Assembly: GCF_003148885.1 (NCBI RefSeq)
Contig: NZ_QGHD01000005.1
Span: 1-64,000 of the forward strand
Source: Hallerella porci
Lineage (GTDB): Bacteria; Fibrobacterota; Fibrobacteria; Fibrobacterales; Fibrobacteraceae
Reading direction: 5' to 3'
Length of the DNA: 64,000 nucleotides
The notes under the pieces are model-generated. The model was given only the letters and a program-made list of their open reading frames with translations. It did not search any database and was not told the origin of the DNA. The first letter of the stretch is position 1. Every line of letters starts with the position of its first letter. A program made the translations under genes and the position numbers. Shown here one piece after another: positions 5,642-14,471 of this stretch.

Positions 5642-6247
5642 TTACCAAGCGCATTTGAAGGTTTGAACATTTCCGATAATCACAATCGTGGCGCCTGCGG
5701 GGAATAAACTGGATTCAACTTGGCTATAAGTATAATCTGATTTATTCCACACTTCTTTGTCGTTTACTAAGATGGTGCAACTGCCACCGCATTGTAAAGC
5801 TACAGGATTTTCGCATTGATTTTCGGCGAGGCTGTAAGTGCCCGCAGAAAGCGGAAGATTTTCTTTGGTTAAAGAAATTTTTTCCAGTTCGCTGCTCGAA
5901 CTTTCCGCGCTCGACGAAGACACGGAGCTAGAACTTTTTTGGGAAGAACTGCTTTCCGCGCTTGACGAAGACACGGAGCTAGAACTTTTTTGGGAAGAAC
6001 TACTTTCCGCGCTTGACGAAATTTCGCTGTTTGAACTCGAAGGAATTTTTCCGCCGCCGTTTGCTTTGCATTCTGCGTTTCCTTGACAAGCGCTCACTGC
6101 GGAATCGATTAGTCCCGCATAATAATTTTCATCTTGTAAATAACGCAGAGTGTCATCGTTGGAATCGATGTCGGCAACGCTACCCGAGCCGCATGAGATG
6201 AAAAAACTCGAAGTGAAAATTCCTGTAAATCCCAAAACTTTTTTCAT
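5642..6247 (-). CDS. Ser-rich lipoprotein, unknown function
   Basis: A 201-residue lipoprotein starting at the ATG at 6247, with GGAAG just upstream; a start four codons earlier would spoil the signal. It has a signal with lipobox SFFISCG, an acidic N-terminal module ending in YYAGLIDSAVSACQGNAEC, a serine linker of about 45 residues, and a C-terminal domain of about 80 residues with four Cys (LSAGTYSLAENQCENP, GGSCTILVND, FKCAW). The linker is encoded by a 51-bp tandem repeat. The N-terminal module is shared with the lipoprotein at 22574. It follows mlaF by 14 bases and may be the last gene of that operon. The function is not recognised. Confidence 0.8.
   Translation of the reverse strand: MKKVLGFTGIFTSSFFISCGSGSVADIDSNDDTLRYLQDENYYAGLIDSAVSACQGNAECKANGGGKIPSSSNSEISSSAESSSSQKSSSSVSSSSAESSSSQKSSSSVSSSSAESSSSELEKISLTKENLPLSAGTYSLAENQCENPVALQCGGSCTILVNDKEVWNKSDYTYSQVESSLFPAGATIVIIGNVQTFKCAW
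5901..6023 (-). repeat. 51-bp in-frame tandem repeat in Ser linker
   Basis: Copies start at 5901, 5952 and 6003 (the last partial). Each unit encodes SAESSSSQKSSSSVSSS. The near-identity of the two full copies points to recent duplication or slippage. Confidence 0.9.
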
Positions 6248-6261
6248 AGAAGCTTCCAAAT

Positions 6262-9811: not shown

Positions 9812-10405
9812 ATGAAAATGATTTATCCGCTGTTTCTTTTGGCGCTTGCGTTCGTTTTCTTCGGTTGCAATGAAAGTCATTCTTGCATTTACAATCCCGA
9901 TAACGAAACTCTCCATTGCGTCGAAAAAACATATAAGACGAAAACGATTGGCGATAAAGTTTGGCTTGCAGAAAATTTGGATTACATGGTAGAATTCAGT
10001 TTCTGCTACGGCGATGATTTTGAAAAGTGTAATGAGTTTGGACGCCTTTACACGTGGGATGCTGCGATGGAATACAATCCGATGAATAAGGATGCTTCGA
10101 ATCGCGGCGTATGTCCTGCGGGTTGGCACATTCCGACCGTCAGCGAATTTGAGGCTGCTCTTCAAACCGATCCGAATTCTTCGGCGTTGCAATTCTTAAA
10201 ATCCGGATTCCGCTATTACGATGATTCGTATGTGGACATGGGAAAGAATGCGACATTCTGGACTGCTTCGGAATACGATGGCGCGAGAGCTTACTTGGTC
10301 CGCATCGACGATAACGAAGTGAAACTCGAACACTTTAATAAAAATATCGCAGGCTCGCTCCGCTGCGTGAAAAATGAAAGCGCACAAGTGGCGCAGAAAA
10401 ATTGA
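9812..10405 (+). CDS. FISUMP-domain lipoprotein
   Basis: A 197-residue lipoprotein (lipobox near VFFGCNESH) with a complete FISUMP domain (TIGR02145 type). It shows the family order TIGDKVWLAENLDY, a Cys pair in FCYGDDFEKCNEFGRLYTW, GVCPAGWHIPTVSEFEA, FWTASEYDGARAYLVRI and GSLRCVKN. The domain is greatly expanded in Fibrobacter, with unknown function and probable surface location. The closing FWTASE...RCV pattern resembles C-type-lectin-like/sulfatase-modifying-factor folds, which is structural inference. Strong GAGGAG site; terminator downstream. Confidence 0.88.
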   Translation: MKMIYPLFLLALAFVFFGCNESHSCIYNPDNETLHCVEKTYKTKTIGDKVWLAENLDYMVEFSFCYGDDFEKCNEFGRLYTWDAAMEYNPMNKDASNRGVCPAGWHIPTVSEFEAALQTDPNSSALQFLKSGFRYYDDSYVDMGKNATFWTASEYDGARAYLVRIDDNEVKLEHFNKNIAGSLRCVKNESAQVAQKN

Positions 10406-10524: not shown

Positions 10525-10944
10525 ATGGCTTCCGTTTCTGAAATGATTCGTAAACGTTCTCCTTTTTTACAAGAAGAATCCGCTGTTTTTCAAGAGCTTT
10601 TAACATTCTTTGGGGAAAAGGCGCAGATCGCTCCGGACTTTCATGATTTGCAAGAATTTTTGGCGCCGAGGCGACTTTATCGGGTCATCAAAATTTCGGG
10701 AACTTCGTTTATGAAATGCGCTTATGCGTTGGTCGATAATTTCCCAGAATGTACGCGGGCGCTTGGAATGCTTCGCTATTATCGTTCGTCGGGTTCTATT
10801 TTTTGGGGCGACGTGGAAAAAGCAGAAAATATCATTTCCAATTCGTTAACGATGGATGTTTACGGTTGGGCGCCAGATTCGTTCACCGTTTTTGAAGGCG
10901 AAAAAGACGGTAAATTTGAATTGACCGCAATTCTCGCTTTTTAA
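10525..10944 (+). CDS. Hypothetical protein, 139 aa
   Basis: I do not recognise this protein. It is soluble-looking, with no signal peptide or membrane segment, rich in aromatic and charged residues, and shows the segments FLAPRRLYRVIKISGTSFMK and SGSIFWGDVEKAENI. The codon pattern matches its neighbours, the gene sits between a terminator and a convergent gene six bases away, and a promoter-like TATATT stands at the leaderless distance from the ATG, so the gene is probably real. Confidence 0.65.
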   Translation: MASVSEMIRKRSPFLQEESAVFQELLTFFGEKAQIAPDFHDLQEFLAPRRLYRVIKISGTSFMKCAYALVDNFPECTRALGMLRYYRSSGSIFWGDVEKAENIISNSLTMDVYGWAPDSFTVFEGEKDGKFELTAILAF

Positions 10945-10950
10945 TTTTTC

Positions 10951-13134
10951 TTATAAAAATTCAAAAAGAATAATGCCCGGAATTTTTCCGGTTCCGACCC
11001 AACTATTTAAATATTCCACTAATTCGTGATCGACGACTTTGTTGAATTTATACGAAGCGTCGCGCAAAATCGGAAGTTTACCGCGGTCTAAAATTAAAAA
11101 TCCCGTGTGCACAATGTCGAGAGAATTGAGTTTGCTTACGAATCCGATTCCGCGAACGGTGCGTTCTCCTTGCCACGGCGAGCCTGCAAATTCAATCGCT
11201 TTTTCGAGAGGCAAATACCGCAGATATAATTTCGTATCGGGCTCCGAAACTTGGATATTTTTCGTTTTGAAAAATTCTTTTTTCGAAATAATGCGTTCGA
11301 CAAGAGTATCGTTCGGAAGCGCAATTTGACGGGCGAATTTTCCTTCGCCAATCCAATCGACGACGAAATAATGTTTGCGGAAACGGTAAGAAATTTTTCC
11401 GTCGATGTAACGGAGTTTTTGTAACACGCTAAAAATGCTGTCATCGCTTGGACTTTTTGCGAGAGCGAGAACGTGTTCAATGAAAGTTACGCAATCGAGA
11501 GAATCCGTATTGATCATCGGCATCGGAGAAATGGAATCGCGGAAGCCTTCGCCAGTGGGACCGCCGTGACCGTAAGGAATATCGAGAAATTTTTCGGAGA
11601 AAAATCGAATGCGATTTTCCAGTCCCGTAATCGAACTTCCTTGATGATACAAATCTTTCATCGTGAGCAAAGAATTGTAGCCGTTATTTGCCGCGCGGTA
11701 AATGCAAGACCAAATTGAATCAAGCGCATCTTTGGTAACGTTGTCGGGAATTTTTCCAGTCTTATTAAAATACGAAGCGATGAGAAGAGTGTCGCCGTCG
11801 ATCGTGGGCATAAAACCGACAAGTCCGTGCGTTTCGTTGATGAATCCGGTTTTGAATCGAATGCACCACGCGTAATCTAAATTCTGCATCCGTTTTGCGC
11901 CGCTTCCGATTCCAGGTCCCGCAAAACTTTGAATGTAAAATTTTCCTTTGGGATGTCGCGCCATCGCTGCGAGTAATTGCGTTTCCGCAGACGGTTTGAG
12001 TTTGTTATCGGGCGAAAGTCCGCAGCCGTCAAAGAGCACAAAATCATCGGGATTTAAATGCAGTTTTTGCAAAAATTCTTTCACGCCTTTGCGTCCATTT
12101 TCCACATTTCCCGTTTGATATTTGACGGCAGAAAAATTGCGAAAGAGCGCTTCGGCATGTAAATTTTGACTGCGCTGATTGATTTCATCGAGGAAACTTA
12201 AAAGCGGCGTGCCTTCAAAAGAAAAGGAAACAAGTTCAATGCCGCTCGGAATTGTCGAATCGATTGCAACGGTAATATTGCGGTCTTTTAATGCGTGCAA
12301 AAATGCGGCTTCAAAATAGCGATTCGGATTGCGCACCGGAATGACGACGGCTGCATTTTTCACATTTTTTCCGATGCTTCCCGAAATGGTGAAAATCGGT
12401 TTATCCGGATCGAGAGCGTAACGCCATTTGCGACGATTGCCGTTGACGGTTTTTAATGTGTTGTTAATTTGTACGTAACCAATGTCAGGCTCCACGGTAA
12501 TTTTCGCCGAATCATTTTCGTTTTCACCGGGATCGATATGAATGAGAGCGCAATTATCGTTGAAAATAAGTGGCGTTACCTCGGCGCCATACCACGAAAG
12601 GAAATAATTTGACCGCCAATGTTCTGGCTTTCGCGGACCCGAGAAATAAGAGGTGTCTAGCTCCGTGCGGATTTGTAGCGTGTCAATTCCTTTGGCGCGA
12701 ATTGAATCGGCGAGACTATGCAAAATGTAAAATGGTTCTGCATAAAAACGCCCCGAAATTCCGGGATCGCCTTCTCCGCGTAAACGGATAACGCCGCGGA
12801 AAGTTTTGCCGCTGATGCTGCCCGCTAATTGCACCGAAGTTTTTGCTCGAAATTGAAGCGGTAAAAAATCAAGCGCCGCCGCCGTTGTGACGGTTTTTAA
12901 TGTACTCGCCGGCGTAAAAAAAGAATCCGATTGAACGGAAATGAGTTCGTTTCCGGAATGCAGCGACCGAATGGAAATGCCAAATTTAGAACCCGGAACC
13001 ATCGAGTCGGCGATGGTTTGATAATCCGAAGAATTCAAAAAAAGTTTCGGCGTAAACGCCACCGAATCTTTCCCATTTTCTTTGGCAAAAATTGCGGATG
13101 CGATGAGCAAAATGGTGAAGAAAATCGGCTTCAT
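10951..13134 (-). CDS. S13 D-Ala-D-Ala carboxypeptidase fused to DUF1460 amidase-like domain
   Basis: A 727-residue exported protein. After the signal peptide (MKPIFFTILLIASAIFA) an S13/PBP4-type domain occupies about residues 30-485, with the active-site tetrad STLK at 77-80, DGCGLSPDN around 369-377 and KTG at 428-430. A second domain (about 500-727) matches the DUF1460 N-acetylmuramoyl-L-alanine-amidase-like family: LDCVTFIEH places a candidate nucleophile Cys at 548, and DIVHTGFL a candidate His at 676. The protein should trim peptidoglycan peptides and perhaps also cut the amide linking them to muramic acid. The start ATG overlaps the aroA stop (ATGA), so the genes are coupled; an in-frame upstream extension lies inside aroA and was rejected. 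Confidence 0.87.
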   Translation of the reverse strand: MKPIFFTILLIASAIFAKENGKDSVAFTPKLFLNSSDYQTIADSMVPGSKFGISIRSLHSGNELISVQSDSFFTPASTLKTVTTAAALDFLPLQFRAKTSVQLAGSISGKTFRGVIRLRGEGDPGISGRFYAEPFYILHSLADSIRAKGIDTLQIRTELDTSYFSGPRKPEHWRSNYFLSWYGAEVTPLIFNDNCALIHIDPGENENDSAKITVEPDIGYVQINNTLKTVNGNRRKWRYALDPDKPIFTISGSIGKNVKNAAVVIPVRNPNRYFEAAFLHALKDRNITVAIDSTIPSGIELVSFSFEGTPLLSFLDEINQRSQNLHAEALFRNFSAVKYQTGNVENGRKGVKEFLQKLHLNPDDFVLFDGCGLSPDNKLKPSAETQLLAAMARHPKGKFYIQSFAGPGIGSGAKRMQNLDYAWCIRFKTGFINETHGLVGFMPTIDGDTLLIASYFNKTGKIPDNVTKDALDSIWSCIYRAANNGYNSLLTMKDLYHQGSSITGLENRIRFFSEKFLDIPYGHGGPTGEGFRDSISPMPMINTDSLDCVTFIEHVLALAKSPSDDSIFSVLQKLRYIDGKISYRFRKHYFVVDWIGEGKFARQIALPNDTLVERIISKKEFFKTKNIQVSEPDTKLYLRYLPLEKAIEFAGSPWQGERTVRGIGFVSKLNSLDIVHTGFLILDRGKLPILRDASYKFNKVVDHELVEYLNSWVGTGKIPGIILFEFL

Positions 13135-14471
13135 TTTGCACTCGGAATTTCGAAATTTGCACCGCTGAACATTTTTAAATCTTTCCAGTAAGCGGGATAA
13201 GTTTTGTTCACGCAGAGCGGATCTAAAATGCGAATTTTTTGGGAACGAGAAATGCCGAAAGCCGCAAGGCTCATGCACATCGCCATTCGATGATCATTAT
13301 AAGTTTCAAATTCTGCGGGGAGAAATTCGTCGGGCGGTGTAATCGTAATCGAATTTTCTGTCGTCGAAATTTTTGCGCCGGTTTTTGAAAGTTCTGCTTT
13401 CATCGCTGCGAGACGATCGGTTTCTTTGACTTTCCAACTGCCTATGCCGCGGATTGTGCTCGTGCCATTAGCAAAAAGGCAAAGCGCTGCAACGGTCATC
13501 GCAGCATCGGGAATCGAAGACAAATCGCAGTCGATTTTTTGAAGCGGAAATTGGCCGCGCTTGCAATCGATGAAACCTTTTCCGTAAACGATTTCTGCTC
13601 CCATTTGCGACAAAACTTCTGCAAAATAAACATCGCCTTGCATGCTGTTTTGATCGATGCCGTATAAGCGAACGGGACCGCCTGCAATCGCAGCCGAAGC
13701 AAAAGCATAACTTGCGCTCGACGCATCGCCTTCGACAGTGTAATCGCCCGGCGAAATGTAGCCCGTATTCGGTACGCAGAATTTTTGGAAATTTTCGTTT
13801 TCAACATGCACGCCGAATTCTTGCATCATCCGAAGAGTCATCGCAACGTAGGGCTTCGAAATGAGTTCGCCATCGACGAGAATGGTCAGCGGATTTTCCA
13901 TGCAAGGAGCAGCCAAAAGAACTGCGGTCAAATATTGGCTCGAAATATTTCCTTTGATGTGCATCGTGCCGCCGCCGAGACCGTTTGCGTGAATGACGAC
14001 GGGCGGAAATCCTTCTTTTTCGGCGTAGTCAATTTTGGCGCCGACTTGAATGAGCGCATCCACTAAATCGCGGATGGGGCGTTCTTTCATGCGGTCAATT
14101 CCGGTGAGTGTAAAATCTCCGTTTCCAAGAGAAGCTGCCGCGGTTAAAAAGCGAATCGAAGTTCCCGAATTTCCGATGAAAAGTTCCGCCTTTTTGCTTG
14201 AAAATTTTCCGCTTGCGCCCGAAATTTCTGCGTCTTTAAAATCGTTTGAAAATCGCATGTTGGCGATGCCCAATTTTTTTAACGATTCCGCCATGTAATG
14301 CGTGTCATCGCTCCACAATAAATTGTGCAAATGCGTTGTGCCGCGGGCAAGAGCTGCGAGTAAAAGCGCTCGATTTGTAATACTTTTGGAGCCAGGAAGG
14401 CAAAGTTCTCCCAGAAAATGGTTTAAATAGGGAATATCCAAAAAAGTTGTATTCAAAGAATGCGTATTCAT
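13131..14471 (-). CDS. aroA: 3-phosphoshikimate 1-carboxyvinyltransferase (EPSP synthase)
   Basis: 446 residues. It should transfer enolpyruvyl from phosphoenolpyruvate to shikimate-3-phosphate in the chorismate pathway. Signatures: GSKSITNRALLLAALA (about 27-42), NSGTSIRFLTAAASL, GIDRMKERPIRDLVDAL, GDASSASYAFASAAI, WKVKETDRLAAM and NDHRMAMCMSLAAFG. The length is normal. The start has no ribosome site, but TAAATT stands seven bases upstream, compatible with a leaderless message. It is followed by the coupled carboxypeptidase gene. Confidence 0.96.
   Translation of the reverse strand: MNTHSLNTTFLDIPYLNHFLGELCLPGSKSITNRALLLAALARGTTHLHNLLWSDDTHYMAESLKKLGIANMRFSNDFKDAEISGASGKFSSKKAELFIGNSGTSIRFLTAAASLGNGDFTLTGIDRMKERPIRDLVDALIQVGAKIDYAEKEGFPPVVIHANGLGGGTMHIKGNISSQYLTAVLLAAPCMENPLTILVDGELISKPYVAMTLRMMQEFGVHVENENFQKFCVPNTGYISPGDYTVEGDASSASYAFASAAIAGGPVRLYGIDQNSMQGDVYFAEVLSQMGAEIVYGKGFIDCKRGQFPLQKIDCDLSSIPDAAMTVAALCLFANGTSTIRGIGSWKVKETDRLAAMKAELSKTGAKISTTENSITITPPDEFLPAEFETYNDHRMAMCMSLAAFGISRSQKIRILDPLCVNKTYPAYWKDLKMFSGANFEIPSAK

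Follow-up and report, generated by a model that had tools for sequence, protein, structure and literature searches.

A PBP4-type S13 domain joined to an AmiA-like (DUF1460) domain: a probable bifunctional peptidoglycan hydrolase of the class Fibrobacteria

Introduction

The closest described relatives of the protein considered here belong to two enzyme groups, the PBP4/DacB and PBP4a proteins (PF02113, TIGR00666) and the AmiA-like amidases (PF07313; AmiA-like is the present Pfam name and DUF1460 the former one), solved structures of which include 2im9, 2p1g and 4h4j/4q5k/4q68. The known S13 proteins that we compared stop after the S13 domain, and the solved AmiA-like proteins are standalone. 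The characterized DUF1460 amidases have a very narrow substrate range and reportedly, in 2014 work by Xu et al., prefer fragments bearing only L-Ala. In terms of the active site, Asp or Asn is common as the third residue in papain-like enzymes.

The locus analyzed here lies in a 64,000-nucleotide stretch of DNA from Hallerella porci (hereafter, the window), a member of the Fibrobacteria, which are important gut degraders of plant fibre. One gene of this locus encodes a protein that runs on from an S13 domain into an AmiA-like domain, and we consider it likely that this fusion is a secreted, periplasmic, bifunctional peptidoglycan hydrolase encoded by a gene that is core to the class Fibrobacteria and present in one copy. 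The separate parts are known, and the clade-restricted combination is apparently new and uncharacterized, with no published study of an S13 plus DUF1460 pairing found in the literature that we searched. A clade-wide fusion of a penicillin-binding-type DD-peptidase and a cysteine amidase would provide a simple, testable handle on wall turnover in the Fibrobacteria and, should both of its halves be active, would unite in a single protein two wall cuts that are usually split between separate enzymes.

Results and Discussion

Domain architecture and predicted structure

The fusion gene and its features are listed in Table 1. The N-terminal half matches Peptidase_S13 (PF02113) with an E value of 1.3e-62 and 212 bits (cut-off, 22.8) as well as the NCBIfam PBP4 model TIGR00666 (191 bits; cut-off, 107.8), and the C-terminal half matches PF07313 with an E value of 7e-27 and 95 bits (cut-off, 27). 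Chance matches are ruled out, because these scores lie so far above the cut-offs. The S13 motif set (STLK, SQN and KTG) is complete. A preliminary description of this DNA had proposed an S13 domain with intact STLK and KTG, joined to a DUF1460 domain with the candidate residues Cys548 and His676; our domain search located both domains in one ORF, with the motifs and both residues in place.

Table 1. Features of the fusion gene and its upstream neighbor, with positions in the window
Feature	Position	Strand	Basis or conservation
S13-AmiA fusion gene	10951..13134	(-)	727 aa; translation, Pfam, AlphaFold2 model
Signal-like N-terminal segment, residues 1-17 (MKPIFFTILLIASAIFA)	13084..13134	(-)	hydrophobic; by eye
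Peptidase_S13 / PBP4 domain, residues 40-472	11719..13017	(-)	Pfam, NCBIfam, Foldseek
SxxK motif, S77-T-L-K80	12895..12906	(-)	S and K in 90/90 fusions
SxN motif, S322-Q-N324	12163..12171	(-)	S and N in 90/90 fusions
KTG motif, K428-T-G430	11845..11853	(-)	K and G in 90/90 fusions, T in 89
Inter-domain stretch, residues 473-511	11602..11718	(-)	mostly helical in AlphaFold2 model
AmiA-like (DUF1460) domain, residues 512-711	11002..11601	(-)	Pfam, PDB sequence search, Foldseek
Cys548, candidate nucleophile	11491..11493	(-)	C in 90/90 fusions
His676, candidate catalytic base	11107..11109	(-)	H in 88/88 fusions reaching that position
Asp692, third triad position	11059..11061	(-)	H 75, D 8, N 4, V 1 (88 fusions)
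aroA, upstream gene	13131..14471	(-)	TIGR01356, 431.5 bits
ATGA overlap, aroA stop / fusion start	13131..13134	(-)	4 nt

Structure prediction led to the same assignment. Specifically, an AlphaFold2 model of the fusion, made with an alignment of 48 fusions, was confident (mean pLDDT 90.7, pTM 0.85), and in Foldseek comparisons its N-terminal half reached TM scores to target of 0.80–0.87 with PBP4a, R39 and PBP4. The matches to 1w5d (0.87), 1w79 and 2ex2 (0.83) point to a PBP4-type fold. The C-terminal half matched the solved DUF1460 proteins 2im9 and 4q5k/4h4j at about 0.70, which is consistent with a papain-like fold retaining Cys548 and His676, and a PDB sequence search agrees with the Foldseek matches for both halves. 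Overall, the fusion resembles PBP4/DacB and PBP4a in domain score, in all three motifs and in fold but continues into an amidase domain, and it resembles the AmiA-like amidases in domain score, fold and the Cys and His residues but carries Asp as the third residue and places the domain behind S13.

Conservation of the putative catalytic residues

Across an alignment of 90 non-redundant fusions, Ser77, Lys80, Ser322, Asn324, Lys428 and Cys548 are invariant, as is His676 in all 88 fusions that reach this position, and the only variation within KTG is a single KSG. Between congeners, dN is low in both halves (dS is saturated, and only the low dN is used from this comparison). The residue invariance in both halves, together with the low dN, argues for selection on both putative active sites.

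With respect to the third triad position, as assigned by alignment, His is found in 75 of 88 fusions, Asp in eight (including those of the genus Hallerella), Asn in four and Val in one. Asp692 is polar but replaces the His found in most relatives and in the solved DUF1460 amidases, a difference that may count against a bifunctional enzyme. An alternative built on this variation is that in the genus Hallerella only the S13 half is enzymatic, with the AmiA-like half having turned into a module that binds peptidoglycan or serves for positioning and thereby aims the S13 half. The occurrence of Asp in this genus and its near relatives, and of Asn or Val elsewhere, would suit such a role; nonetheless, we judge it improbable, as Cys548 and His676 remain unchanged throughout the aligned fusions and active papain-like enzymes vary in their third residue according to PMC10318531, which gives the triad of 4q5k as CHH, with His as the third catalytic residue.

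Proposed function

In the bifunctional reading that we favor, the PBP4-type S13 domain, through its SxxK, SxN and KTG motifs, would remove terminal D-Ala and/or cut D-Ala–mDAP cross-links, and the papain-fold AmiA-like domain (Cys548, His676, Asp692) would cut the N-acetylmuramoyl-L-alanine bond, with the fusion protein serving wall remodelling and turnover. Family membership and residue conservation suggest both enzymatic activities, and the signal-like N-terminus, judged by eye, indicates that the protein is probably exported.

Amidase_2, AnmK, Amidase_3 and NlpC/P60 were looked for in 10 genomes that carry the fusion, and enzymes for the bonds that the fusion would cut were thereby covered in part. 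The AmpD family, Amidase_2, was present in one of the 10 and AnmK in none, and Amidase_3 and NlpC/P60 were each found once per genome. We infer a periplasmic enzyme, one half of which would trim stem peptides or undo their cross-links and the other cut MurNAc–L-Ala, because the residues are conserved, dN is low, no further S13 or AmiA-like gene accompanies the fusion in the five Fibrobacteraceae genomes checked, and, in the 10 genomes, AmpD-type enzymes are rare and AnmK was not found. Wall remodelling and turnover is the most likely role for the sole S13 plus AmiA-like enzyme of the clade. A more far-reaching proposal, which we hold to be possible though rather unlikely, is that the fused amidase half replaces AmpD in cutting MurNAc–L-Ala, in the periplasm and tied to un-crosslinking, so that the Fibrobacteria would process their wall fragments without AmpD and AnmK, by a route with this one protein at its center. 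Given the narrow substrate range of DUF1460 enzymes, the two halves need not act sequentially on one molecule, and should the preference for L-Ala-only fragments hold, a peptidase, for example the NlpC/P60 enzyme, would be needed between their two cuts.

Relationship to aroA

The upstream neighbor of the fusion is aroA, which encodes an enzyme of the shikimate pathway; its TIGR01356 score (Table 1) stands well above the cut-off of 287. Assignment as MurA, an AroA homologue, was rejected, as the murA profile scores 58 bits, far under its own cut-off. Translation of the fusion together with aroA, as put forward in the preliminary description, is permitted by the 4-nt ATGA overlap, which allows translational coupling; a functional tie between aroA and a peptidoglycan enzyme did not emerge, and we know of no biochemical link between aroA and a peptidoglycan hydrolase.

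Searching named genomes with the alignment of fusions gave 187 relatives, the best 80 of which underlie the locus counts given here. In 66 of the 78 named fusion loci from this set, aroA precedes the fusion gene in the same orientation. With starts called mechanically, the two genes are adjacent or overlapping in 30 loci, commonly by 4 nt, and 1.4–3.4 kb apart in 36. The gap in one locus (L035) contains a gene for an SBP_bac_1 solute-binding protein, and that in another (L033) contains a similar-looking gene and a GGDEF-like gene, both judged from sequence. No aroA was found nearby in eight Fibrimonas-type loci (L034 among them) of the 78. The variable spacing, the intervening genes and the Fibrimonas-type loci lacking a nearby aroA all suggest that the gene order is old and insertion-tolerant. 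The overlap at the Hallerella porci locus and the recurrence of aroA upstream, at times directly adjoining, could also be read as a functional pair in which translational coupling would co-regulate wall turnover and the supply of aromatic precursors. We find this very improbable in view of the widely spaced loci, of the solute-binding-protein gene between the two in the cases read, and of the loci without aroA. The overlap is probably an old operon of convenience, or housekeeping, without a metabolic link.

Distribution and origin

Matches to PF07313 were found in 103 of 111 Fibrobacteraceae genomes (55 of the 56 good ones), nearly always in one copy, and sit in open frames of 700–800 aa. The fusion is the sole S13 and the sole AmiA-like gene in the five Fibrobacteraceae genomes checked for this, and two genomes of the family without an AmiA-like match (G014 and G031) are without S13 as well. 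In the rest of the class, fusion-length frames occur in families f2, f3 and f4, and a check of representatives of each found the two domains together in a single ORF; in family f5 (G164, G165), the AmiA-like gene stands alone and S13 is encoded by another gene. In the class Fibrobacteria, the fusion is a core gene, present in single copy.

Of the best 80 of the 187 named relatives, 79 are titled as Fibrobacterota and one (L078) is titled only "bacterium"; the nearest named relative, among the matches listed, is Fibrobacter intestinalis ATCC 43854, at 77% identity. An artefact of assembly or reading frame that merged two neighboring genes has a negligible probability and was rejected, as both domains lie in a single ORF in 78 of these 80 loci, across many assemblies, the other two stop at contig edges, and the domain matches are free of internal stops.

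In other phyla, about 35 of about 224 sampled genomes have AmiA-like matches. Among the matches listed, S13 is absent from the ten long-frame proteins of this sample, a check in which one chosen ORF was not the AmiA gene and from which G421 (515-aa frame) was left out. Three more phylum-wide searches (82, 291 and 4 genomes, with 42, 44 and 4 AmiA-positive) returned no frame above 587 aa, and the longest, of 587 aa, has a different N-terminus. Several of these proteins resemble the fusion in carrying an AmiA-like domain plus another domain (HEAT in G294, Amidase_2 in G212, N-terminal repeats judged from sequence in G404), but the partner is never S13. The G212 protein (L055:1406-2803, minus strand), from another phylum, is a different, two-amidase fusion. 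Occurrence of the S13-AmiA fusion outside the Fibrobacterota was rejected for the genomes sampled, the long open frames examined being other architectures.

Plasmids yielded only separate S13 or DUF1460 genes and no full-length fusion match. Standalone DUF1460 proteins are found on 611 plasmid records (e.g., H41 and H48), 560 of them from Klebsiella and 146 predicted to be conjugative.

Restriction of the fusion to the Fibrobacteria is well supported, though not proven, as the sample of other phyla is small next to all bacteria. The earlier suggestion that the architecture is not a common one holds among the AmiA-positive genomes of other phyla, in which no S13-AmiA fusion was found, but not within the class Fibrobacteria, where it is a core gene.

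A tree of 42 AmiA domains places the 19 fusions in a single group with moderate support (84/79), and the standalone f5 proteins are nearest to that group (85/91). The simplest reading is a single fusion event within the class, and f5 may have kept the two genes unfused or may have split them later. The f5 S13 genes (L072:1275-3485, minus strand; L073:1644-3629, plus strand) match PF02113 in two pieces that skip roughly profile positions 157-230, and part of the S13 insert region thus seems to be missing or diverged.

Other features near the locus

Convergent to the fusion, at window positions 10525-10944 (plus strand), lies a gene for a 139-aa protein that had no match in Pfam or NCBIfam and is kept beside the fusion in many Fibrobacteraceae loci. 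Positions 9812-10405 (plus strand) encode a protein with a Fib_succ_major domain, of a family named after Fibrobacter succinogenes. Promoter-like sites are not above chance expectation, and terminator-like sites number 14, against 6.9 expected. An ORF at positions 5642-6259 (minus strand) contains serine-rich repeats (SSSSAESSSSQK), preceded by a signal-like N-terminal part and followed by a C-terminal one.
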